A stretch of DNA of 64,000 nt from Acholeplasma laidlawii (GTDB lineage: Bacteria; Bacillota_I; Bacilli_A; Acholeplasmatales; Acholeplasmataceae): assembly GCF_015709225.1 (NCBI RefSeq), contig NZ_JADNRS010000053.1:1-64000 (forward strand), in the 5' to 3' direction. Shown in pieces: positions 32,905-44,403 of the stretch. A program made the position numbers and the translations under genes. Each line of letters opens with the position of its first letter. Position 1 is the first letter of the stretch. The notes below the pieces were generated by a model that ran no database searches, was not told the DNA's origin, and was given only the letters and a program-made list of their open reading frames with translations.

Positions 32905-33852
32905 ATGAATAAATCACAACAAAGTAGAATTTTTGTTGCCAGCGCATTGTTCATATTATTGATAGCTGCTTCGTTTATTTTTGGAGCAACTGTTTTTATT
33001 GTGGGCGCAGCGGCAATACTCACGTCTTTCGTGGTAGAAATACTTAGCTCAAAAGCTAGAAAAGAAACTTTTGATTGGACAAGTTTCTGGATTACACCAC
33101 TTGTTATTACACTACTTACAACACCAACGATCATTGATCAAGTTTGGATGGTAAGTATTGCAACAGCATTTGGGGTATTCTTTGCAAAATCCATATGGGG
33201 TGGGCAAGACAAGAACGTATTTAATCCGGCAATGGTTGGATTAATCTTCATTGCACTTGCATTTCCAATTTATGTTAATAATTTTCTAGAACCAGTATCT
33301 GGTTTGGCTTCTCCTCAGACTTTAGCTACAATCTTTAAAAATAGTCCAGGACAAATCATGACTACCTATTCCTTATGGGATGTCTTACTAGGAAACTATG
33401 CTGGAGCAATTGGTACTACATTTAAGTTAGGTATCATTATATTAGGTTTACTCATGATGATTATTAGAATTTCTGATTGGCGTATTCCACTAACCTTTGT
33501 AGGTACATATTTTGTATTATCTCTCATAAATGGTTTCACTAAAACTGGTGTTAATCCATTTATGTATGCAACCTACTCTATTTTAATGGGGCACTTGATG
33601 TTTGCTGTTATGTTTGTTTCTACAGACCCACAAACTGCACCATTATACAATAAAGGTAAATTCATCTATGGCATTGGATTAGGATTTATAACTTGGATTA
33701 TTCAAAATATTTGGGTTTTCAATCCACTTGCACCTAATACTGAAGGTATTATCTATTCCGTAACGTTCATGAATGCTGTTGTAGGCTTAATTGATGTATG
33801 GACTGTACCTAAAGTAAAAGATATTCCTAACCTCGAGGAGGTTGCTATATGA
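32905..33852 (+). CDS. nqrB: NqrB/RnfD-like membrane subunit
   Basis: 315 residues, ~8-10 helices, shorter than NqrB (~410) and close to RnfD. Family landmarks: KNVFNPAMVGLIFIAL, GNYAGAIGTTFKLG, SDWRIPLTFVGTYF, MFVSTDPQTAPLYNKGKFIYG and the C-terminal NAVVGLIDVW. The SGAT flavinylation motif of NqrB/RnfD is changed: the aligned stretch reads SPQT (Thr139), so covalent FMN here is doubtful. In Nqr this subunit forms the Na+ path and passes electrons to the acceptor. First gene of the five-gene operon, with GAGAGGAA before its ATG. Confidence 0.88.
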   Translation: MNKSQQSRIFVASALFILLIAASFIFGATVFIVGAAAILTSFVVEILSSKARKETFDWTSFWITPLVITLLTTPTIIDQVWMVSIATAFGVFFAKSIWGGQDKNVFNPAMVGLIFIALAFPIYVNNFLEPVSGLASPQTLATIFKNSPGQIMTTYSLWDVLLGNYAGAIGTTFKLGIIILGLLMMIIRISDWRIPLTFVGTYFVLSLINGFTKTGVNPFMYATYSILMGHLMFAVMFVSTDPQTAPLYNKGKFIYGIGLGFITWIIQNIWVFNPLAPNTEGIIYSVTFMNAVVGLIDVWTVPKVKDIPNLEEVAI

Positions 33853-35819
33853 AAAAATATATTAGTATGTTAAGCTTTGTTCTTATCATGGGTATTTTAT
33901 CTTCTGTCATTTTAATGGGTGCAGATATGATCACACGTGATAGAATTGCTAAAAATGCAGAATATGCTTGGAAAACAGCTATATTAACGCATCATAATGT
34001 TGATTATACTGATGCGAACTTCGACGAAGTATTTCTAGAGACTTTTGAAGAAAGAACTGCTGAAGATACGAATGGTAATACTAGATACTTATATGTACAC
34101 AATCAAACTGGTGCAGTGAGTTATCAGTTCAGCGGTGGTGGCTTATGGGATACCATTGCGGGTGTTATTACATTAGAAAGTGATTTCCAAACAATTGTTC
34201 AAATTACCGTTACTAAACAAGGAGAAACTCCAGGTTTAGGTGGTATTGTCGCAGAAAAACCTTATCTAGATAATTATGCAGGTAAGAAATTTGATGAATC
34301 CCTTGGTTTAGTTGCTGTTAAGACAGAGCCTACTACAGATTATGAAGTAGATGCAATTACCGGTGCTACTGGTACTTCTAATGCTTTTGTTGGTCTACTA
34401 AGTGTTGAATACCGCACTATGTTAGGTTTATTCGGAGATGTGAATCCATTATCCGTTGCAATGAAAGCTATTATGACTCATAATGATGTCGAGTTTACTG
34501 GCGAAAACTTTGAAGATGTATTTGCTCAAAACTTCGAAACAACTACAATCGATGAATTAACACTATATACTCACAAAGTAAATGGCAACGCAAGTTTCAC
34601 ATTTACTGCTGGCGGATTCAATGGTCCAATTGATGCAGTTGTGACACTTGATCCACTATTTGAAACAATTTTAGGTATCAAAGTACTTTCTCAATCTGAA
34701 GGTTGGGGCGCAGTTATTCAAACTCACCCAGAAGTATTAGAGTACTTTGTTGGTAAGAAATTTGCACCTGACTTCGAATTATCTGATGATTTTGATGGTT
34801 TCGGTGGTGCTACTACTACTAGAAAGAATTTCGTATTAGGACTTAATGACGCAAGAGATTTATATTATTCAATCTTTATTGATGGTGTAGATCCAAACAT
34901 GGTTTGGAAACAAGCACTTCTGACAAATAATGGTATTCCTTCTACTGAAGAAGATTATAAGACATTATTTAATCAAACATTTACAGTTGAAACACAAGGT
35001 GATTTAACACTTTACAGAAATAACACAGATCAAAATATCAGTATGTTATTTGAAACAGATGGTTTTGGTGGAGTTATTAAAGGTGTACTAACACTTGAAA
35101 ATGATTTTTCAACGATTGTTTATATTACAATTTACCAACAATCAGAAACTTGGGGAGCTCGTATCCAAAATAATGCAGAATTCTTTGATGCTTATGTCGG
35201 TAAGAAGTTTGCTCCAATAATCTCATTTGTAGAAACACCAACAACTGATTCTGAAATCGTTGATGGATATGGTGGTGCTACTACAACTAAAGGCGCTATG
35301 CTTGAAATATTAAATTCAGTACGTGATTCATATTACACTGCGTTCTTCGATCCAAACATGGTTTGGAAAAAAGCAATGCTTGCAAATAACGGTGTTGAAT
35401 CTACTGACTTAAATTATGAAACATTATTTGATACAACATTTAATGTAGAAACTTCTGGTGACTTAACATTATATACAAATAAAACAAATCAAAATGTAAG
35501 TTTCACATATGAAACAACAGGTTTTGTAGGTGACATTAAAGGTGTTATAACACTAGCTAGCGATTTTGAAACAATTGTTCGTATCAGTGTTTATGAACAA
35601 CATGAAAAATGGGGTGCACGTATTCAAACAACCCTAACATTCTTTGATGATTATGTTGGTAAGAAATTCTCACCAACAATCTCATTTGTAGAAACACCAA
35701 CAACAGATTCTGAAATTGTTGATGGTTATGGTGGAGCTACTACAACTAAGGCTTCTATGTTAAACATTTTAAATGAAACTGTAGCAGCATATAAATTAGC
35801 ATTTGCGGAGGAGGCATAA
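33849..35819 (+). CDS. nqrC: NqrC/RnfG-like protein with four FMN-binding-type domains
   Basis: 656 residues, over twice the usual NqrC/RnfG length. One N-terminal membrane helix (~5-25) anchors it, and the rest should face outside. Four tandem units follow, each ending in a candidate flavinylation motif: TGAT (Thr174), then GGAT at Thr322, Thr478 and Thr631. Unit 1 is canonical (ETPGLGG, DAITGATGTS); units 2-4 have EGWG/ETWG/EKWG and D-G-(F/Y)-GGATTT. Units 3 and 4 are nearly identical, also at DNA level. It would carry up to four covalent FMNs as an outward electron wire. Overlaps nqrB by 4 bp. Confidence 0.88.
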   Translation: MKKYISMLSFVLIMGILSSVILMGADMITRDRIAKNAEYAWKTAILTHHNVDYTDANFDEVFLETFEERTAEDTNGNTRYLYVHNQTGAVSYQFSGGGLWDTIAGVITLESDFQTIVQITVTKQGETPGLGGIVAEKPYLDNYAGKKFDESLGLVAVKTEPTTDYEVDAITGATGTSNAFVGLLSVEYRTMLGLFGDVNPLSVAMKAIMTHNDVEFTGENFEDVFAQNFETTTIDELTLYTHKVNGNASFTFTAGGFNGPIDAVVTLDPLFETILGIKVLSQSEGWGAVIQTHPEVLEYFVGKKFAPDFELSDDFDGFGGATTTRKNFVLGLNDARDLYYSIFIDGVDPNMVWKQALLTNNGIPSTEEDYKTLFNQTFTVETQGDLTLYRNNTDQNISMLFETDGFGGVIKGVLTLENDFSTIVYITIYQQSETWGARIQNNAEFFDAYVGKKFAPIISFVETPTTDSEIVDGYGGATTTKGAMLEILNSVRDSYYTAFFDPNMVWKKAMLANNGVESTDLNYETLFDTTFNVETSGDLTLYTNKTNQNVSFTYETTGFVGDIKGVITLASDFETIVRISVYEQHEKWGARIQTTLTFFDDYVGKKFSPTISFVETPTTDSEIVDGYGGATTTKASMLNILNETVAAYKLAFAEEA

Positions 35820-35820
35820 T

Positions 35821-36480
35821 ATGGAAAACAATCAATCAATCTTACCTAAACCAAGTCGTTGGTTAAGACTCCAATATAAAAAATGGTTTCTAATACTTAA
35901 AAATGGTATTTCAGAAGAAAATCCAATTATTGTCTCAGTATTAGGTATCTGTTCAGCACTTGCTGTTACAAATAGAGTAGAAAATGCAATCGTCATGGGT
36001 ATTGGTGTTACATTCGTTATTATGGCTTCTTCTATGATGGTCTCTATGATGCGTAATCTCATCCCTTCTAAGGTACGTATGGTAGCTTTCATGGTTATTA
36101 TTTCAATGTTTACTATCGTAGTTCAAATGTTCTTACAAGCATTCTTACCTGTAGTTGCTGCAAACCTTGGTGCATATACTGGTTTAATAATTACAAACTG
36201 TATTGTTATGGGTAGAGCAGAAGCATTCGCTATCAAAAACCCTGTTAAATATACTATTATTGACGGTTTTGCTAACGGTATGGGTTATACCTTAGTATTA
36301 ATTGCAATCGCTGCAGTTCGTGAGCCTTTAGCATTTGGTACATTCCTTGGTATGAGCATTCCTGGTTTTGATAACTGGATCAACTGGAACGTTATGGCGT
36401 TAGCACCTGGTGGTTTCTTCGTATTAACCTTATTAGCATGGTTAGTGCGTACATTAACCAAGAAATATGAAGAAGCGTAG
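35821..36480 (+). CDS. nqrD: NqrD/RnfE-like membrane subunit
   Basis: 219 residues from the ATG at 35821, preceded by GGAGGAGG that lies inside the end of the previous gene; a TTG 18 bp upstream is rejected. Six helices. Cys44 (LGICSALAVTNRVENA) and Cys127 (ITNCIVMGRAEAFA) are the conserved residues that, with the paired subunit, hold the intramembrane iron centre in Nqr/Rnf. It relays electrons across the membrane as part of the ion pump. One base after the C-subunit stop. Confidence 0.94.
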   Translation: MENNQSILPKPSRWLRLQYKKWFLILKNGISEENPIIVSVLGICSALAVTNRVENAIVMGIGVTFVIMASSMMVSMMRNLIPSKVRMVAFMVIISMFTIVVQMFLQAFLPVVAANLGAYTGLIITNCIVMGRAEAFAIKNPVKYTIIDGFANGMGYTLVLIAIAAVREPLAFGTFLGMSIPGFDNWINWNVMALAPGGFFVLTLLAWLVRTLTKKYEEA

Positions 36481-36493
36481 GAGGAGATAAAAC

Positions 36494-37078
36494 ATGGAAT
36501 TAATTGAATTATTCTTAGCATCAATACTATCAAATAACATCGCCTTAATCTTCATTTTAGGGATGTGTTCATTAATCGCTGTCTCCACATCCATTAAAAA
36601 CTCAGTCAACATGGGTGTTGCAGTTATCTTTGTTGTTACAATAACGGCTGTAATTAACTGGCCAATCTATGAATTACTTAAAGCAACTGGTACAGAACAA
36701 TTAGCATTATTAGTATTTATTATTGTTATTGCAGCATTTGTACAATTCTTAGAAATGTTCTTAGCTAAATATTTTCCAAAGATTTACGAATCATTTGGTA
36801 TCTTCTTACCTCTGATTACTGTAAACTGTATCGTATTATCTGTATCATTATTTTTCCAACAAAGAAATTACGATTTCTTACAAACAACCGTATTCGCATT
36901 CGGTTCTTCAGTTGGTTGGACATTTGCAATGATCTTACTTGCAGGTGTTAGACAAAAAATGTACCGCGTATCTAACCTTCCAAGAGGTTTACGTGGTCGT
37001 GCGATTGCATTCTTAATTTTAGGGATCTTAGCATTAGCATTCATTGGCTTTACCGGTATCGGTAGAGTATCATTTTAG
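36494..37078 (+). CDS. nqrE: NqrE/RnfA-like membrane subunit
   Basis: 194 residues, six helices, inverted-topology partner of the D subunit. Cys25 (ILGMCSLIAVSTSIKNS) and Cys112 (LITVNCIVLSVSLFF) supply the other iron ligands; RNYDFLQTTVFAFGSSVGW is a clear NqrE/RnfA signature. GGAGG precedes the ATG. It forms the core of the pump with the D subunit. Confidence 0.94.
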   Translation: MELIELFLASILSNNIALIFILGMCSLIAVSTSIKNSVNMGVAVIFVVTITAVINWPIYELLKATGTEQLALLVFIIVIAAFVQFLEMFLAKYFPKIYESFGIFLPLITVNCIVLSVSLFFQQRNYDFLQTTVFAFGSSVGWTFAMILLAGVRQKMYRVSNLPRGLRGRAIAFLILGILALAFIGFTGIGRVSF

Positions 37079-37087
37079 GAGGAAACT

Positions 37088-38164
37088 ATGAACCCATTAT
37101 ATACACCTATAATTCTTATTGGTTTACTCATCGTTGTTACACTTGTAGTTATCTTAGTTGATAAATTACTCGGTGGTGGTGGTGAACGTAAAATCACTGT
37201 TAATAAAGATAATGTCATTACAATCTCTGGTAGAGAAACAGCATTAAATGCACTAACTAATAACAAGATTTTCTTACCATCTTCATGTGGTGGTAAAGCT
37301 ACTTGTGGTACATGTAAATTTAGACTAGTCGATTGGCATGAAGCACCAAAACCTACAGAATTACCATTCTTATCTAAAGATGAAATTAGCGAAGGTATTC
37401 GTTTATCTTGCCAAGTGGTAGTTAATGAGGATATGCAAGTTGAAGTCCCACCGTCCGTACTAAACGTTAAACCATTCTATGGTAAAGTCGTTGAAGTTGA
37501 ACAACTAACCCATGATATTAGACGAATCAAGTTTGAAATGAAAGAAGATTTCGTTTTCAAACCAGGACAATACTTACAAATCGAAGTACCTGGTATTGAA
37601 ACAACGAGAGCATACTCTATTGCATCAAATCCAAATGATTTAAGACACCCAGAAGTCATTATTCGTTTAGTACCAGGCGGTGTCGCAACTAAGTTTATTC
37701 ATAAAGCATTAGTTATTGGAGATACATTAAAAATTACTGGTCCATTTGGTGACTTCTTCTTACAAGAAGAGTCTACTCGTCCAATCATTATGATTGCTGG
37801 TGGTTCTGGTAAAGCTCCAATTCGTTCAATTATCTATAAATTAATTGAACAAAACATGCCAAGAAAAGCACAATATTTCTTTGGTGCAAGAACTAAAAAA
37901 GATTTATATTATACTAAAGAGTTCAAAGATGTTGAAAGAATGTACCCTAACTTCAAATATATTCCAGCTTTATCTACTCCACTTCCAGAAGATGAGTGGG
38001 ATCTAGATATCGGGCTTATCACTGAAGTTGTTGCAAGACACACTGGTGATCTAAGTGGTCACGAAGCATATCTTTGTGGATCTCCTGGTATGATCGATGC
38101 ATGTATTAAAGTATTAAGAGAAAAAGGTATGCCTGAAGAACATATCTACTTCGATAAATTCTAA
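37088..38164 (+). CDS. nqrF: NqrF-like NADH dehydrogenase subunit (2Fe-2S, FAD)
   Basis: 358 residues: one N-terminal helix (~8-27), a plant-type 2Fe-2S domain with Cys67, Cys73, Cys76 and Cys108 (SCGGKATCGTCKFRL ... LSCQ), a ferredoxin-reductase FAD domain (RAYSIAS) and an NAD domain (AGGSGKAPIRSI, YLCGSPGMIDACI). It is the cytosolic entry point that oxidises NADH and feeds electrons via FAD and 2Fe-2S into the membrane subunits. It identifies the operon as Nqr-type rather than Rnf-type. Last gene, followed by a strong terminator; nqrA is absent. Confidence 0.94.
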   Translation: MNPLYTPIILIGLLIVVTLVVILVDKLLGGGGERKITVNKDNVITISGRETALNALTNNKIFLPSSCGGKATCGTCKFRLVDWHEAPKPTELPFLSKDEISEGIRLSCQVVVNEDMQVEVPPSVLNVKPFYGKVVEVEQLTHDIRRIKFEMKEDFVFKPGQYLQIEVPGIETTRAYSIASNPNDLRHPEVIIRLVPGGVATKFIHKALVIGDTLKITGPFGDFFLQEESTRPIIMIAGGSGKAPIRSIIYKLIEQNMPRKAQYFFGARTKKDLYYTKEFKDVERMYPNFKYIPALSTPLPEDEWDLDIGLITEVVARHTGDLSGHEAYLCGSPGMIDACIKVLREKGMPEEHIYFDKF

Positions 38165-38167
38165 TTT

Positions 38168-38196
38168 TAAAGGTGAGCTTATTGCTCACCTTTTTC
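38168..38196 (+). terminator. Terminator of the Nqr-like operon
   Basis: Stem AAGGTGAGC / GCTCACCTT with loop TTATT followed by TTTCTTTATTT, starting 4 bp after the nqrF stop codon. Confidence 0.9.
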
Positions 38197-38250: not shown

Positions 38251-38892
38251 TCATTTTTGACTATCTAATTGTTTTTTTAAGATAAGATCTTTAGATTTCA
38301 TAATACGGATTGTATTAGATAATTCTGCCTCATTGATTTTCATACGAACCACTTTAATATCTGCCATAATTTCAGGAATTAAAATATGTTCAATCGCGTT
38401 TACACGGCGCTTAGTCTTTTCTATTTCTCTAATCAAGATACGAACTCTTTTATCCATTGCAGCAAGTTCAATAAACTTATTTAAATTACTTGCTAGATTT
38501 AGGACAATATCATCTAATATCGGATGCGTACCATGAAATGAGTACGTGATTTGAGGCTTTATAGTTTCTTTAATCTCAATTTTAGGTACTGTAACACTCA
38601 TGACGGACTCTTTTTTATATTCCAGTTCTAGCGTTGTTGCAGGTACTAGAAATTTTTCACGTAATTCAGATTCATAATGAAACGCTTTAGCACTATCATA
38701 CTTATCTAAGGCATCCAACCATTTATCTTCAACAAGTGTGCGTAAGACTTTATATTGTTCAACCATGCTTAAAAATTGGCGCATCATCTCATCTTGTTTA
38801 TCTTTTAAAAGACGATGTCCTTTTCTTGTAGTAGCTAGTTGATTTTTTAATCTTGTAAGCTCCATTCTTGTTGCATTAGCGATATTTGGCAT
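38251..38892 (-). CDS. ntpD: V-type ATPase subunit D (central stalk)
   Basis: 213 residues forming long antiparallel helices with the start NATRMELTRLKNQLATTRKG and the end region EIEKTKRRVNAIEHILIPE, both diagnostic of subunit D. It is the rotor shaft inside the A3B3 head. Last gene of the nine-gene operon, 5 bp after ntpB. Confidence 0.95.
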   Translation of the reverse strand: MPNIANATRMELTRLKNQLATTRKGHRLLKDKQDEMMRQFLSMVEQYKVLRTLVEDKWLDALDKYDSAKAFHYESELREKFLVPATTLELEYKKESVMSVTVPKIEIKETIKPQITYSFHGTHPILDDIVLNLASNLNKFIELAAMDKRVRILIREIEKTKRRVNAIEHILIPEIMADIKVVRMKINEAELSNTIRIMKSKDLILKKQLDSQK

Positions 38893-38897
38893 TGAAA

Positions 38898-40277
38898 TTA
38901 CTCCTTAACTTTGTAGTATTTATCTAAGCGTTTATTAGAGATACGTTTTAATTCAGATCTCGGTAGAATATTTAATAACTTCCAACCTAGATCAAGTGTT
39001 TCTTCGATCGTTCTATTAGAATCATATCCTTGAGATAAGTATTCTTTTTCAAACTTATCTGCAAATACTGCATAGAGTTTATCAGTATCCGATAATGCAG
39101 ATTCACCAAGTACAGTTGCTAATTCTTTAGCTTCTTTACCACGCGCATAGCTTGCAAACAATTGGTTTAATGTATCAGAGTGATCATCTCTAGTTTTACC
39201 TTCACCAATACCTTTATCCTTTAGACGAGATAAAGATGGTAAGACATCCACTGGTGGTTGTATACCTTTTTGATGTAGGCTTCTAGATAAAATCACTTGA
39301 CCTTCTGTAATATATCCTGTTAAGTCAGGAATTGGATGAGTCTTATCATCTTCTGGCATGGTAAGGATTGGCAATTGGGTAATAGAGCCTTTTTTGCCCT
39401 TTACACGACCTGCACGCTCATATAAAGATGAAAGGTCAGTATACATATATCCTGGGTAACCACGACGTCCTGGCACTTCTTTTCTCGCTGCTGAAATTTC
39501 TCTTAAAGATTCTGCATAGTTTGTAATATCAGTCATGATAATTAAAACGTGCATATCTAATTCATAAGCTAAATACTCCGCTGCTGTAATTGCCATACGA
39601 GGGGTTGCAATACGCTCAACTGCTGGGTCATTTGCAAGGTTTACAAACATGACAGTTCTATCGATTGCACCTGACTTTTTAAATTCTTCAATAAAGAAGT
39701 TTGACTCTTCAAATGTGATACCAATTGCAGCAAATACTACCGCAAAATTATCCGTTGTACCGACAACTTTTGCATTTCTAGCAATCATTGCAGCAAGTTT
39801 ATTATGTGGTAAACCTGATCCTGAAAAGATTGGTAATTTTTGTCCACGAACAAGTGTATTTAATCCATCAATGGATGAAACACCTGTTTGAATAAACTCA
39901 GATGGATAGTCTCTTGCTACCGGGTTTAGTGGTATACCGTTAATATCCATTTTCATTTCTGGAATGATTTTACCTTTACCATCCTTAGGTTCACCCATAC
40001 CACTAAAGATACGGCCTAAGATGAGTGGAGATAAATCAAGTTCTAAACCATGACCTAAGAATACTGCTTTAGCATCTTCAATTTTTAGTCCTTGACTGGA
40101 TTCGAATAATTGAACTAACGCTTTATCTTGATCAATTTCTAGAACGCGTCCATATCTGGTTGTGCCATTAGCAAGTTTAACACGCACTGTTTCATCATAC
40201 TTAACATTTTCAGTATGTGTAACAAGCATTAGAGGTCCAACGACTTCTTTGATTGTTTTATATTCTTTAATTGCCAT
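38898..40277 (-). CDS. ntpB: V-type ATPase subunit B (non-catalytic)
   Basis: 459 residues, nucleotide-binding-fold protein lacking a Walker A loop, as expected for B. Motifs: [54 protein letters not shown]. It alternates with A in the hexameric head. 4 bp downstream of ntpA. Confidence 0.97.
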
Positions 40278-40281
40278 CGTT

Positions 40282-42042
40282 TTACTCCTTTCTTAAACCG
40301 CTAAATTGTTGATGCATCTGTTTAACGACTTCTTCATATGTGCTTAACATATCTTTTTCTTCAACATACTTAAAGCGTCCAATTTGTTCTTTCACAGCTA
40401 AGCGTTCAATATCTTTAAAAGACATTTCATGTTCAATTGCGTGAACTGCTAAGTCGTTAAATAAAATAATCATATCTAATAATCTAAATTGTTTATCTAA
40501 TGATGAATACGTATCAATTGGATCAAATGCATTTTGATGTAAATAGTCTTCACGAATCATTTGAGCTACTAATAATTTTAGACGATCTGATGCACCTAGT
40601 GAATCTACCCCAACAAGTCTTACAATTTCTTGGAGTGAAGCTTCTTCTTGTAATAGCGTTGAAACAAAACTTACATGGTGTGTCCAATTTTTATCTACAT
40701 TTGTATTAAAGAAGTCTCTAATTTGTTCATCATATAGTGAATAGGATTTTAACCAATCTATCGCAGGGAAGTGACGTCTATATGCAAGTGATGCTGATAA
40801 GCCCCAGAACACTTTAACAATTCTTAGTGTTGCTTGTGAAACCGGTTCTGATGTATCTCCACCTGGAGGAGAAACAGCTCCAATTGCGGTAATTGCACCA
40901 GTTCTTGCCTTTGAACCAAGTGTTTCAACCAAACCAGCACGTTCATAGAATTCTGCAATTCTTGAACCTAAATAAGCAGGATAACCTTCTTCACCTGGCA
41001 TTTCTTCTAATCTTGAGGACATTTCACGTAAGGCTTCAGCCCAACGCGATGTAGAGTCCGCCATAATCGCCACTTTATAGCCCATATCTCGATAGTATTC
41101 AGCAATTGTAATACCTGTATAGATACTAGCCTCTCTAGCGGCAACTGGCATGTTTGAGGTGTTTGCGATTAATACGGTACGTTTCATAAGTGGTTGACCA
41201 GTTCTAGGATCCTTTAATTCAGGGAATTCCATAAGTACGTCAGTCATCTCATTTCCACGTTCTCCACAACCAATATAAACAATAATATCTGCATCAGCCC
41301 ATTTAGCTAGTTGGTGTTGAACTACAGTTTTTCCACTACCAAAAGGTCCAGGGATTGCTGCAATACCACCGATAGCAATCGGAAACAATGTATCAATAAC
41401 ACGTTGTCCTGTAACCATTGGTTGGGTTGGTGCTATTTTTTTGTTATATGGTCTTTTAATACGTACTGGCCATGATTGCATCATCTTAAGTGGGATGATA
41501 TCACCATCATGATCTAGTTCACATACTGTATCTACTACTGTAAATTCACCAGATTTGATTGTTTTAACAGTACCACTTAGATTTGGTGGAACCATAACTT
41601 TATGTACAACGGATTCTGATTCATGAACGATACCAATAATATCGCCACCTTCTACAACATCGCCTACTTCAACTTGTGGAATAAATTGCCACAGTTTTTC
41701 TCTACTTAATTTTGGAATATCAACACCCAGTGGAATACCTTGTCCATGGATTTGATAAATATCATCTAGTGGTCTTTGAATACCATCAAAAATACCACCA
41801 ATTAAACCAGGTCCAAGCTCAACACTTAATGGTTCATTTGTTAAAAATACAGGTTCACCTGGTCCAATACCAGCAGTTTCTTCATAAACTTGAATCGATG
41901 CTAAATCACCACGTAATTCTAGGACTTCACCGATTAATCTTTTGTCAGAAACTCTAACAACGTCATAAACTTGAGCTGAACCCATGTTTTTAGCAACAAT
42001 TAATGGACCTGATACTTTAGTAATAATACCTTTATTTGTCAT
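40282..42042 (-). CDS. ntpA: V-type ATPase catalytic subunit A
   Basis: 586 residues from the ATG at 42042, which has AAGGAG 9 bp upstream; an ATG at 42060 overlapping the previous stop would add six residues. The bulge domain (~110-190, with [17 protein letters not shown]) and P-loop [13 protein letters not shown] distinguish it from F-type beta. [18 protein letters not shown] follows. It binds and hydrolyses (or makes) ATP. Confidence 0.97.
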
Positions 42043-42056
42043 TTTTTCATGCTCCT

Positions 42057-42362
42057 TCATATAATTGAAATCCCAATTGATTTTTCAACGAGTAATTTCA
42101 ATTCGGATAATGTATCTTCATGTTTTAAACCACTTGGTAGTTTTAAAAATATAGGATACATAGACTCTTCATATTTCTCTAATAAAGTTTGAACATAAGC
42201 TTCACTAACTGCATCATAGATAATAATTTTACTATCACTTGATGCATATTTGGCAATATGTTCTTCTACATTCTTCAAGTCATTATCAACATAGACGGTT
42301 ACGCCCACACTACGTAGAATAATGAATGACTCATTCGTACTACATGCAACTATTTCCGGCAT
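42057..42362 (-). CDS. ntpG: V-type ATPase subunit F
   Basis: 101 residues, a small Rossmann-like protein ([19 protein letters not shown]) matching subunit F (NtpG of Enterococcus). It sits with D on the central stalk. Located between subunits C and A, its conserved place. Confidence 0.87.
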
Positions 42363-42369
42363 AATTCAT

Positions 42370-43293
42370 CTACTCCTTAATTTGATAATACTTTTCTTTT
42401 AATACACGCATTTCATCTCTTTTTAAAATTGTAAAGTGAAGTACTGTTGCAAAACCTAAACTTTGGAAACTCAAATCTTCTAAAAGATTTTGTCTATATT
42501 CATTAAATGCATCATTTAATATATCTAAGAAGTTTGGCTTACCTACATATTTAAATGCATCAGTTAAAGTCACATCAAAGTGAAGACTTAAGTAATTTCC
42601 TATTTCAGTAAGTGATTTGTCAAACAATTCCATTAGAATATGTTTATCAATCATACCACCACTTAAGATATTCATTTCTAAATATTCTAGATTTTTATTG
42701 TATTTGATGCTTCTTATAAGTAACATTACATTTAAGATAGTCGTTTCTAGTTCAATATACTTTTTGATATAACTATCTGTTTTTTTGTTGAATGAAGATA
42801 TGATTCTATCATGTAATATTTTAATCACTCTATCAGAAATACCTTGTGCATCTAATTGACTTGTTTCTAATTGTATGTGATCTAAAAAAGAAATGTCTTC
42901 TAAATCAAGTAGACCAGATACTCCATTTAAAATATAATCTTCATATCTTTCTTCATTGAAGTTGCTTAGACTGTTTGTAAACTTATTATAAGTTAATCCT
43001 AGGTGATAGGATTTCATGAGGTTAGATAAAAACAGGTGATCAAATGTTAAATATAACACCTTAAAGATGAGATGATTTTTATCGATTAAAGACTCTAAGA
43101 ATTGACGATGTTTTAATTCTTCTTCTAACATGATGGTGTCAATATGAGATTCACTTGCACGACCATATTGGTGTGTTTTAAGCAAGCTTAAAAAATCTTT
43201 TCTAGATATGTTTTCAAAACTCTTTAAATGGCTTGGTGATAATAAGCGATCAATTGAACCACTCATAACACCACTAACAAATGAAATATCCAT
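42370..43293 (-). CDS. ntpC: V-type ATPase subunit C (rotor adapter)
   Basis: 307 residues, all-helical, with SFVSGVMSGSIDRLLSPSHL at the start and YVGKPNFLDILNDAFNEYRQ towards the end, as in the d/C subunit that joins the central stalk to the membrane ring. It is flanked by ntpE and ntpG. Divergent in sequence, so the call leans on context as well. Confidence 0.85.
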   Translation of the reverse strand: MDISFVSGVMSGSIDRLLSPSHLKSFENISRKDFLSLLKTHQYGRASESHIDTIMLEEELKHRQFLESLIDKNHLIFKVLYLTFDHLFLSNLMKSYHLGLTYNKFTNSLSNFNEERYEDYILNGVSGLLDLEDISFLDHIQLETSQLDAQGISDRVIKILHDRIISSFNKKTDSYIKKYIELETTILNVMLLIRSIKYNKNLEYLEMNILSGGMIDKHILMELFDKSLTEIGNYLSLHFDVTLTDAFKYVGKPNFLDILNDAFNEYRQNLLEDLSFQSLGFATVLHFTILKRDEMRVLKEKYYQIKE

Positions 43294-43295
43294 TA

Positions 43296-43901
43296 TTAAT
43301 TTAACGCCTCATATATAGTTTTTTCATACTTTTTAGTTAGACTCTCTAGTAGATTTTCTAGTGAAAAGTTTAAGTCATATAGTTTACCTACAAGCATAAA
43401 TCCAGATTCGATTTGGGCTGGTTTATTACTTAATTTTAACTGATAGTCTTTACCTAATTTTTGATTTAAAAGATCTGCTTCGACTAAGTCACCCTTCTTA
43501 GTTGTTAGAATACTTTGATACATTGCATATTCTTTTTTACTTACTTGAATTTCTTCCGTTTTATCAATAGCTTGATTTTGGATAGAACGCACTACATAAT
43601 TAAAGTAGTCTTCTTTGTTTAAGTGTTTTAATTCTGCTTTTAACTCTACAAAAATGGATTCAATTAGCTGTTGCTTAGATATTGCGACTTCATCTCTTAA
43701 TGCACGCATACCTTCTTGTTTAGCTTGTTCAACTTGTGCCTTAGCTTTCTGTTGTGCTTTATGAAGTTGAACTTCTAAATCAGCTTTTGCTTCTTCAATT
43801 AATCTATTTTTAAGTGCTTCAGATTCTTCTTTAGCGCTTAGATTAATAGCATCAATAATTGACTGTCCTTTTTGTATAATTTTTTCTTCTAATTTTGACA
43901 T
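43296..43901 (-). CDS. ntpE: V-type ATPase subunit E (peripheral stalk)
   Basis: 201 residues: N-terminal coiled coil rich in Lys, Glu, Ala and Gln (~1-75) and a C-terminal alpha/beta domain with KPAQIESGFMLVGKLYDLNF, the typical subunit E ending. Forms the peripheral stalk with the short coiled-coil subunit encoded first in the operon. Confidence 0.9.
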   Translation of the reverse strand: MSKLEEKIIQKGQSIIDAINLSAKEESEALKNRLIEEAKADLEVQLHKAQQKAKAQVEQAKQEGMRALRDEVAISKQQLIESIFVELKAELKHLNKEDYFNYVVRSIQNQAIDKTEEIQVSKKEYAMYQSILTTKKGDLVEADLLNQKLGKDYQLKLSNKPAQIESGFMLVGKLYDLNFSLENLLESLTKKYEKTIYEALN

Positions 43902-43911
43902 AATAGCCTCT

Positions 43912-44403
43912 TTAAGCAGGTAATTGTGTCCACATTAAGATGGATACAAGTAATGCTAAAATCGCATAAGTTTCTACTAAGGCTGTCATTGTAATCCCAC
44001 GTGTTGAGATCTCCGGTCTTTTACCTGTCATTAAAATAGATGAAGCTGCCATTTTACCTTGGTAAATTGCTGATACTAAACCAACAAGTGCAATTGGTAA
44101 TGCTGCTGCAAAATACATTTGACCTTGCATTTCTGTTAATGCGATTGGTGATCCTGTTAACCAACCCATTCTAACTAATAATAATACAGCAACTAAGAAT
44201 CCATAAATACCTTGTGTACCTGAAAGTGCTTGTAATACTAAGACTTTACCGAATAGATCTGGTTTTTCACTTAATACTCCTGTTGCTGCTCTACCAGCAA
44301 TAGAAACCCCCATTGCTGATCCAATACCTGCTAAACCTGCTGCTAAGGCAACTCCCATAAGTGCCCAAGTTAAACCGTCAAATGACATAAAAATGAATGG
44401 CAT
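43912..44403 (-). CDS. ntpK: V-type ATPase rotor subunit K, Na+-type
   Basis: 163 residues, a duplicated four-helix proteolipid. The ion site in the second hairpin has Glu144 (ALVETYAIL); Thr63-Gln64 (LSGTQGIYGF) and Gln115 (YQGKMA) match Thr64, Gln65 and Gln110 of Enterococcus hirae NtpK, which coordinate Na+. Only the second hairpin has the carboxylate, as is usual for V-type K. The ring therefore probably moves Na+ rather than H+. Confidence 0.94.
   Translation of the reverse strand: MPFIFMSFDGLTWALMGVALAAGLAGIGSAMGVSIAGRAATGVLSEKPDLFGKVLVLQALSGTQGIYGFLVAVLLLVRMGWLTGSPIALTEMQGQMYFAAALPIALVGLVSAIYQGKMAASSILMTGKRPEISTRGITMTALVETYAILALLVSILMWTQLPA

Follow-up and report, generated by a model that had tools for sequence, protein, structure and literature searches.

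The 64,000-nucleotide window analyzed here, positions 1 to 64,000 of Acholeplasma laidlawii contig NZ_JADNRS010000053.1, contains an operon related to that of the Na+-translocating NADH:quinone oxidoreductase (Na+-NQR). Its five genes, in the order nqrB-nqrC-nqrD-nqrE-nqrF, occupy positions 32905 to 38164, and adjacent genes overlap or are spaced by no more than 16 bases. The open reading frame at 33849-35819 (plus strand), translated from the window, gives the NqrC-like protein of 656 amino acids (aa) on which this analysis centers. A first-pass annotation of this DNA had described the protein as a membrane-anchored C subunit with four tandem flavin mononucleotide (FMN)-binding units, ending in TGAT (Thr174), GGAT (Thr322), GGAT (Thr478), and GGAT (Thr631), a description that translation and Pfam bear out in full (Table 1).

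The Pfam FMN_bind model matches NqrC in four separate stretches, with a whole-protein E value of 1.3e-37. In a genome-wide FMN_bind search, the four stretches are individually significant (E values of 4e-15, 2.2e-8, 7.3e-8, and 1.3e-6) and are the only matches in the genome. With these four stretches and an N-terminal helix, the protein shares with the multi-flavinylated class the presence of more than one FMN_bind domain on a membrane-anchored extracytosolic protein. Each unit extends beyond the short FMN_bind core and reproduces the complete NqrC ectodomain, about 150 residues long. Identity between units is 34 to 43%, except for units 3 and 4, which share 65%. A Pfam match to Chordopox_A15 fell under the cut-off and was rejected.

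Structure prediction agrees with the units being modeled on the NqrC/RnfG fold. Unit 4, modeled alone from 38 sequences, has a mean predicted local distance difference test score (pLDDT) of 92.3 and matches Vibrio cholerae NqrC (4u9s) with a Z score of 17.1 and a root mean square deviation of 2.2 Å over 156 residues; VIA-align rows with a Z score under 8, such as lipoate ligases, polo-box proteins, and NADH peroxidases, were taken as background. This high-confidence model predicts an NqrC fold for unit 4, and a full-length AlphaFold2 (AF2) model (pLDDT of 80, predicted template modeling score [pTM] of 0.54) repeats the same order of elements four times.

Table 1. Coordinates of the operon and of the NqrC-like protein within the window
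Feature	Position	Strand	Details and evidence
nqrB/rnfD-like membrane subunit	32905..33852	+	315 aa, lacks Dxx[ST]GAT; Pfam PF03116, E 2.1e-55; site alignment
nqrC-like subunit	33849..35819	+	Membrane helix and four FMN_bind units; Pfam, AF2 model
N-terminal membrane anchor, ~aa 2-30	33852..33938	+	AF2 long helix aa 2-48; hydrophobic N terminus
Unit 1, aa 37-196, acceptor Thr174	33957..34436	+	Canonical NqrC ectodomain; ETPGLG, DAITGAT
Unit 2, aa 197-346, acceptor Thr322	34437..34886	+	DGFGGAT
Unit 3, aa 347-502, acceptor Thr478	34887..35354	+	DGYGGAT
Unit 4, aa 503-656, acceptor Thr631	35355..35816	+	DGYGGAT; NqrC fold in model
Acceptor Thr174 codon	34368..34370	+	Translation
Acceptor Thr322 codon	34812..34814	+	Translation
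Acceptor Thr478 codon	35280..35282	+	Translation
Acceptor Thr631 codon	35739..35741	+	Translation
nqrD-like membrane subunit	35803..36480	+	Cys50 and Cys133 align with V. cholerae NqrD [2Fe-2S] cysteines
nqrE-like membrane subunit	36494..37078	+	Cys25 and Cys112 align with V. cholerae NqrE [2Fe-2S] cysteines
nqrF-like NADH dehydrogenase subunit	37088..38164	+	FAD, NAD, and [2Fe-2S] domains; Pfam PF00175, PF00970, PF00111; Cys67/73/76/108
Terminator-like hairpin, operon end	38169..38193	+	Directly 3' of nqrF

To follow the extra units, that is, those after the first, we aligned 28 of them (two partial) over 154 columns. Two Thr residues, the acceptor and the one two positions after it, are invariant across all extra units, a degree of conservation reached by only 7 of the 154 columns. 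This pair aligns with Thr229 and Thr231 of Vibrio harveyi NqrC, where Thr229 is flavinylated and the side chain of Thr231 binds N3 of the flavin (PMC4348036). Comparison therefore supports units 2 to 4 as putative flavin domains, being homologous to unit 1 and carrying the conserved acceptor Thr, and the FMN_bind-type nature that the first-pass annotation had assigned to them is strengthened by both the Thr pair and the model of unit 4. There is also precedent for such arrays, as the related three- and four-domain proteins SaFMN3 and CbFMN4 carry three and four covalent FMN, respectively (PMC10339131).

The gene is found in all eight Acholeplasma genomes, and complete copies have 2 to 5 units: four in the window and in G005, UBA4853, G002, and G004, five in A. 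oculi, and two in A. equifetale. In A. granularum (G003), assembly breaks fall inside the array, with three units on one contig and more on another (C10/C11, loci L057/L058). Other sampled family members have a single-unit NqrC, apart from Haploplasma modicum (L059:4552-7095), whose 847-aa NqrC has five units; its extra units are strongly diverged, with GVT or RVT motifs, but keep the acceptor Thr, possibly reflecting an independent or old amplification. In the unit phylogeny, all first units cluster together (support of 99/99), with those of single-unit relatives among them, and the extra units fall outside this group. Sister pairs occur within single arrays (units 4 and 5 in A. oculi, units 3 and 4 in G002), so rebuilding of the array is ongoing. 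The window protein is 97% identical over its full length to that of the nearest relative, G005, which has the same four sites, and the ratio of nonsynonymous to synonymous substitution rates (dN/dS) between the two is 0.03 to 0.13 over all units and 0.06 to 0.13 for the extra units. Between these two sequences, every extra unit has evolved under purifying selection. Together with the presence of a multi-unit gene throughout the genus, this selection indicates that the four units are not there by chance.

The same alignment bears on whether unit 1 is the only electron carrier, with units 2 to 4 as flavin-poor or flavin-free spacers, a docking surface, or a shield. Such a role would account for the varying number of units (2 to 5), for the E-x-W-G (ETWG-type) loop that replaces ETPGLG in most extra units, window units 2 to 4 included, and for the motifs of several relatives, which depart from Dxx[ST]GA[ST] as far as the GVT or RVT of H. 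modicum; an A-to-V change in the motif of another protein lowered flavinylation to about half (PMC12052999). Against it stand the two Thr residues, which stay fixed in the extra units where most other columns change, the retention of D, G, A, and T at all three extra sites of the window, and the purifying selection on all units. We consider the spacer explanation rather improbable.

The Gly that precedes GAT in three of the four motifs had been put forward in the first-pass annotation as marking a variant target for the flavin transferase ApbE. This part of the annotation does not hold, and GGAT as a special ApbE code is rejected. Among homologous sites in the lineage, this position (-3) drifts between G, A, S, T, and V. 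In a sample biased to relatives, most NqrB/RnfD sites carry A there (16 of 24), and NqrC/RnfG sites carry T, A, S, V, or G. Within the same genome, RnfD and RnfG have DAAAGAT, DGAAGAT, and DGNAGAT, and Peloplasma NqrB has DIVGGAT. As the position varies both within the genome and among relatives, GGAT is best seen as one state of a relaxed position. The genome has one ApbE gene (L006:8451-9533), toward the end of an RNF-type locus described below, and ApbE most likely loads covalent FMN on the four extracytosolic domains.

The remaining subunits retain much of a Na+-NQR. NqrF has the FAD, NAD, and 2Fe-2S domains, the four NqrD/NqrE cysteines for the membrane [2Fe-2S] cluster are all present, and NqrC has the covalent-FMN motif within a predicted NqrC fold. 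The calculated masses are 72.5 kDa for NqrC, 40.1 kDa for NqrF, and 21.5 kDa for NqrE; a membrane NADH oxidase of A. laidlawii purified around 1981, reportedly an enzyme with FMN, iron-sulfur, and copper and subunits near 65, 40, and 19 kDa, may be this complex. Three other elements are missing. First, the operon has no nqrA, and the genome yields no match to NqrA_N, a model that finds just 4 of 14 controls. Second, alignment shows NqrB to lack the Dxx[ST]GAT consensus in the window and in all Acholeplasma homologues. Third, UbiA is undetected in all eight Acholeplasma genomes by a search that is positive in 14 of 14 controls. UbiA is needed by the known ubiquinone and menaquinone routes. With UbiA undetected, no quinone synthesis is evident in the genus. 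Peloplasma aerotolerans, of the same family, also carries nqrBCDEF and has no detectable quinones (PMC11122141).

These observations speak to the simplest alternative, an ordinary Na+-NQR working on quinone, or on an analogue from the host or medium, in which the C subunit is decorated and the extra units are neutral. Subunits B to F are all present, the cofactor ligands of NqrF, NqrD, and NqrE are kept, and recent structures find NqrA free of cofactors, with quinone bound in the membrane part (PMC12174285). On the other side, UbiA is undetected throughout the genus, the NqrB consensus is lost in all Acholeplasma sequences yet kept in RnfD of the same genome, and NqrB, C, D, E, and F all miss their NCBIfam equivalog cut-offs, with the broader rnfG subfamily cut-off being reached. 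We regard an ordinary Na+-NQR as very improbable.

We instead propose, with a probability of roughly 60%, that an NqrA-less NQR-type complex exports electrons from NADH over a four-domain NqrC flavin relay to a non-quinone acceptor outside the cell. NqrF would oxidize NADH by means of its FAD and [2Fe-2S] cluster, and the [2Fe-2S] cluster of NqrD/E would carry the electrons across the membrane to the FMN on unit 1 of NqrC. From there they would pass to the FMNs of units 2 to 4 on the outside rather than back through NqrB to quinone. The final acceptor could be the multi-domain RnfG of a second half-complex, O2, ferric iron, or a soluble oxidant, and in a wall-less cell the flavin chain would face the medium directly. 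The features behind this proposal are legible in the sequence, with four homologous domains, their conserved acceptor Thr residues, and the retained FeS ligands on one side and the undetected NqrA and UbiA and the lost NqrB consensus on the other; from them we infer flavin occupancy, the direction of flow, ion pumping, and the acceptor. A non-quinone acceptor had been suggested in the first-pass annotation, and the genomic setting, with no NqrA, no UbiA, and the NqrB consensus lost, fits one. Given the absence of detectable UbiA from the genus and the amplified outer flavin subunit, an external flavin relay would be the most economical outlet.

Several observations weigh against outward flow to a non-quinone acceptor. 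A Thr is still found at or beside the NqrB site, albeit out of consensus, and no gene for a terminal acceptor is linked to the operon. As NqrA carries no cofactor, its loss alone does not exclude quinone reduction, and we reject the argument that this loss by itself proves a non-quinone function (PMC12174285); an exogenous quinone could serve as the acceptor. The extra-unit motifs of some relatives are eroded (GVT, SAT, and STAT), which makes partial occupancy possible, and in the full-length model the domain arrangement, given the pTM of 0.54, and the loop preceding the acceptor Thr are uncertain. Cytochrome bd was rejected as the acceptor in this organism, as CydA is absent from all eight Acholeplasma genomes examined.

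The second half-complex is encoded elsewhere in the 1.33-Mb genome. On contig C1 (L006:3075-10516), the gene order is rnfC-rnfD-rnfG1-rnfG2-rnfE-rnfA-apbE-nusG-like. RnfC has intact NADH/FMN and 4Fe-4S motifs, RnfD keeps a DAAAGAT site, and RnfG1 and RnfG2 are double-domain proteins with the sites AAGAT, NAGAT, and a TGPT. RnfE and RnfA, on the other hand, have no cysteines at all, the ligands present in RnfE of Clostridium tetanomorphum being lost. RnfB, the ferredoxin-binding subunit of the RNF class, is also missing: no rnfB is found in the genome, where the sole match to the rnfB model is the FeS domain of RnfC (G000:C1:38127-38321). Among family loci with a readable cluster, all 11 without rnfB (L006, L068, L188-L195, and L198) also lack the canonical RnfA/E cysteines, whereas all 9 with rnfB (L063, L064, L196, L197, L200-L202, L204, and L207) keep them. 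The two losses thus coincide in 20 of 20 informative loci (Fisher P of 6e-6, overstated since the loci are related). Judged by cofactor ligands, the RNF remnant retains the half that the NQR remnant has lost, and the reverse. Both half-complexes occur in all eight Acholeplasma species.

This complementarity raises a special case of outward flow, in which the two complexes rebuild one out-and-back circuit. Electrons would run from the NqrC flavin chain to the two double-domain RnfG proteins, then to RnfD, and finally to cytosolic RnfC, with a flavin bridge in place of quinone. It draws support from the half lost by the RNF locus being exactly that kept by NqrBCDEF: the RnfC motifs, DAAAGAT of RnfD, and DGAAGAT of RnfG1/RnfG2 are kept, while RnfB and the RnfE/A cysteines are gone. 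The coincidence of these losses in every informative locus and the presence of both half-complexes in all eight species point the same way. However, an RnfC working with NAD(H) would make the overall reaction NADH to NAD+, which leaves no driving force without another cytosolic partner or an ion gradient. Moreover, Acholeplasma genomes do not have the nqr and RNF genes linked, and any contact between NqrC and RnfG is hypothetical. We consider this bridge unlikely.

A parallel to export over outer flavins is found in relatives that bear CydA, which occurs in 5 of 88 family genomes; UbiA is found in none of the five. Four of the loci (L060, L061, L062, and L066) share the operon arrangement cydA-cydB-(fusion of RnfD with one to four FMN_bind domains)-rnfE-rnfA-nqrB-C-D-E-F. 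Their RnfE/A have no cysteines, and their NqrD/E are FeS competent. In the fifth genome, G085, cydA lies on L065 beside a 507-aa DxxxGAT protein, and an Rnf/Nqr-type gene fragment closes the contig; this piece does not carry the nqr genes, as the contig ends inside the corresponding stretch. When CydA of G039 is aligned to the Escherichia coli oxidases, the alignment passes from residue 251 to residue 267 where E. coli bd-II has residues 253 to 383, indicating that nearly the whole quinol-binding Q-loop is gone. In L061, CydA (L061:3002-4171) lacks nearly all of this loop. Loss of the Q-loop is expected if outer flavins, not quinol, feed the oxidase, and gene order and residues suggest that cytochrome bd in these relatives is fed by covalent outer flavins instead of quinol.

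Taken across the Acholeplasmataceae, these layouts raise the tentative idea, to which we give somewhat less than even odds, that outer covalent flavins replace the quinone pool between NQR- and RNF-derived half-complexes. In this quinone-free layout, an FeS-competent NqrBCDEF half would put NADH electrons on the outer flavin chain and a second half would remove them. The unloading half would be RnfCDG plus FeS-dead RnfEA in Acholeplasma and, in the relatives, an RnfD-multiFMN fusion, FeS-dead RnfEA, and a cytochrome bd whose Q-loop is deleted. If this holds, covalent flavins can take the place of quinones, and the respiratory chain becomes open to direct testing in a classical, cultivable mollicute, A. 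laidlawii or a near relative. The cofactor ligands kept and lost by the NQR and RNF halves offer a rare case in which electron direction can be read from sequence.

Upstream of the nqr operon, on the opposite strand, lies a gene resembling MgtE-type transporters. On its other side, the operon is adjoined by a V-type ATPase operon (window 38251-44403, minus strand). The K subunit of this ATPase (43912-44403) has LSGTQ and ETYAIL segments, which we take to resemble the Na+-binding motif of Enterococcus hirae NtpK. By this presumed likeness, the neighborhood may run on Na+.

In comparison to known systems, the operon shares with the V. cholerae Na+-NQR a homologous and identically ordered set of B to F subunits, an NqrF of the NADH/FAD/[2Fe-2S] type, the NqrD/E [2Fe-2S] cysteines, and a canonical NqrC unit 1 (ETPGLG and DxxTGAT). 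It differs in having no NqrA, no sign of quinone synthesis, no NqrB consensus, four NqrC ectodomains, and subunits that score under the equivalog cut-offs. Closer in gene content are the NqrA-less NqrBCDEF of Thermotoga thermarum, P. lettingae, and Clostridium ultunense (PMC4148951 and PMC5924567), where the acceptor is likewise not known and an RNF cluster coexists; NqrBCDEF without NqrA has also been noted in an Izimaplasma genome. The Thermotoga and C. ultunense papers, compared here as papers rather than by sequence, mention no amplified NqrC, and the Acholeplasma companion RNF differs in lacking RnfB and the RnfA/E FeS ligands.

Tandem FMN_bind proteins are themselves known, partly on RnfG-type subunits (PMC8238504 and PMC10339131). 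Meheust et al. (2021) described multi-flavinylated proteins with up to 13 sites, RnfG included, and suggested that these give electrons a second route to acceptors outside (PMC8238504). The premise of the first-pass annotation that usual NqrC and RnfG proteins have one unit thus applies to most but overlooks multi-flavinylated RnfG. The Acholeplasma array differs from these proteins in that it belongs to an NQR-type complex fed by NADH, its genus lacks NqrA and UbiA, and it repeats the whole NqrC ectodomain rather than the short core. The two-subunit Nqr/Rnf-like complexes (PMC11334425) also have an NqrB/RnfD relative without the FMN-Thr site, and a one-way flow from NAD(P)H to the outside has been proposed for them. 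There, however, the NqrB-like and NAD-binding domains are fused and NqrD/E are absent, whereas in Acholeplasma nqrB, D, E, and F are separate genes and the complex is FeS competent.

An RNF complex of Acholeplasma is already on record. The amplified Acholeplasma NqrC, the complementary ligand losses, and the quinone-free reading were not found in the literature searched, which did not take in subscription papers or the 2021 survey's supplementary tables; the latter may list the protein. Multi-flavinylated RnfG (2021) and NqrA-less NQR (Thermotoga, 2014) were each described before; what looks new is their occurrence together, in a quinone-free setting and with half-complexes that complement each other.

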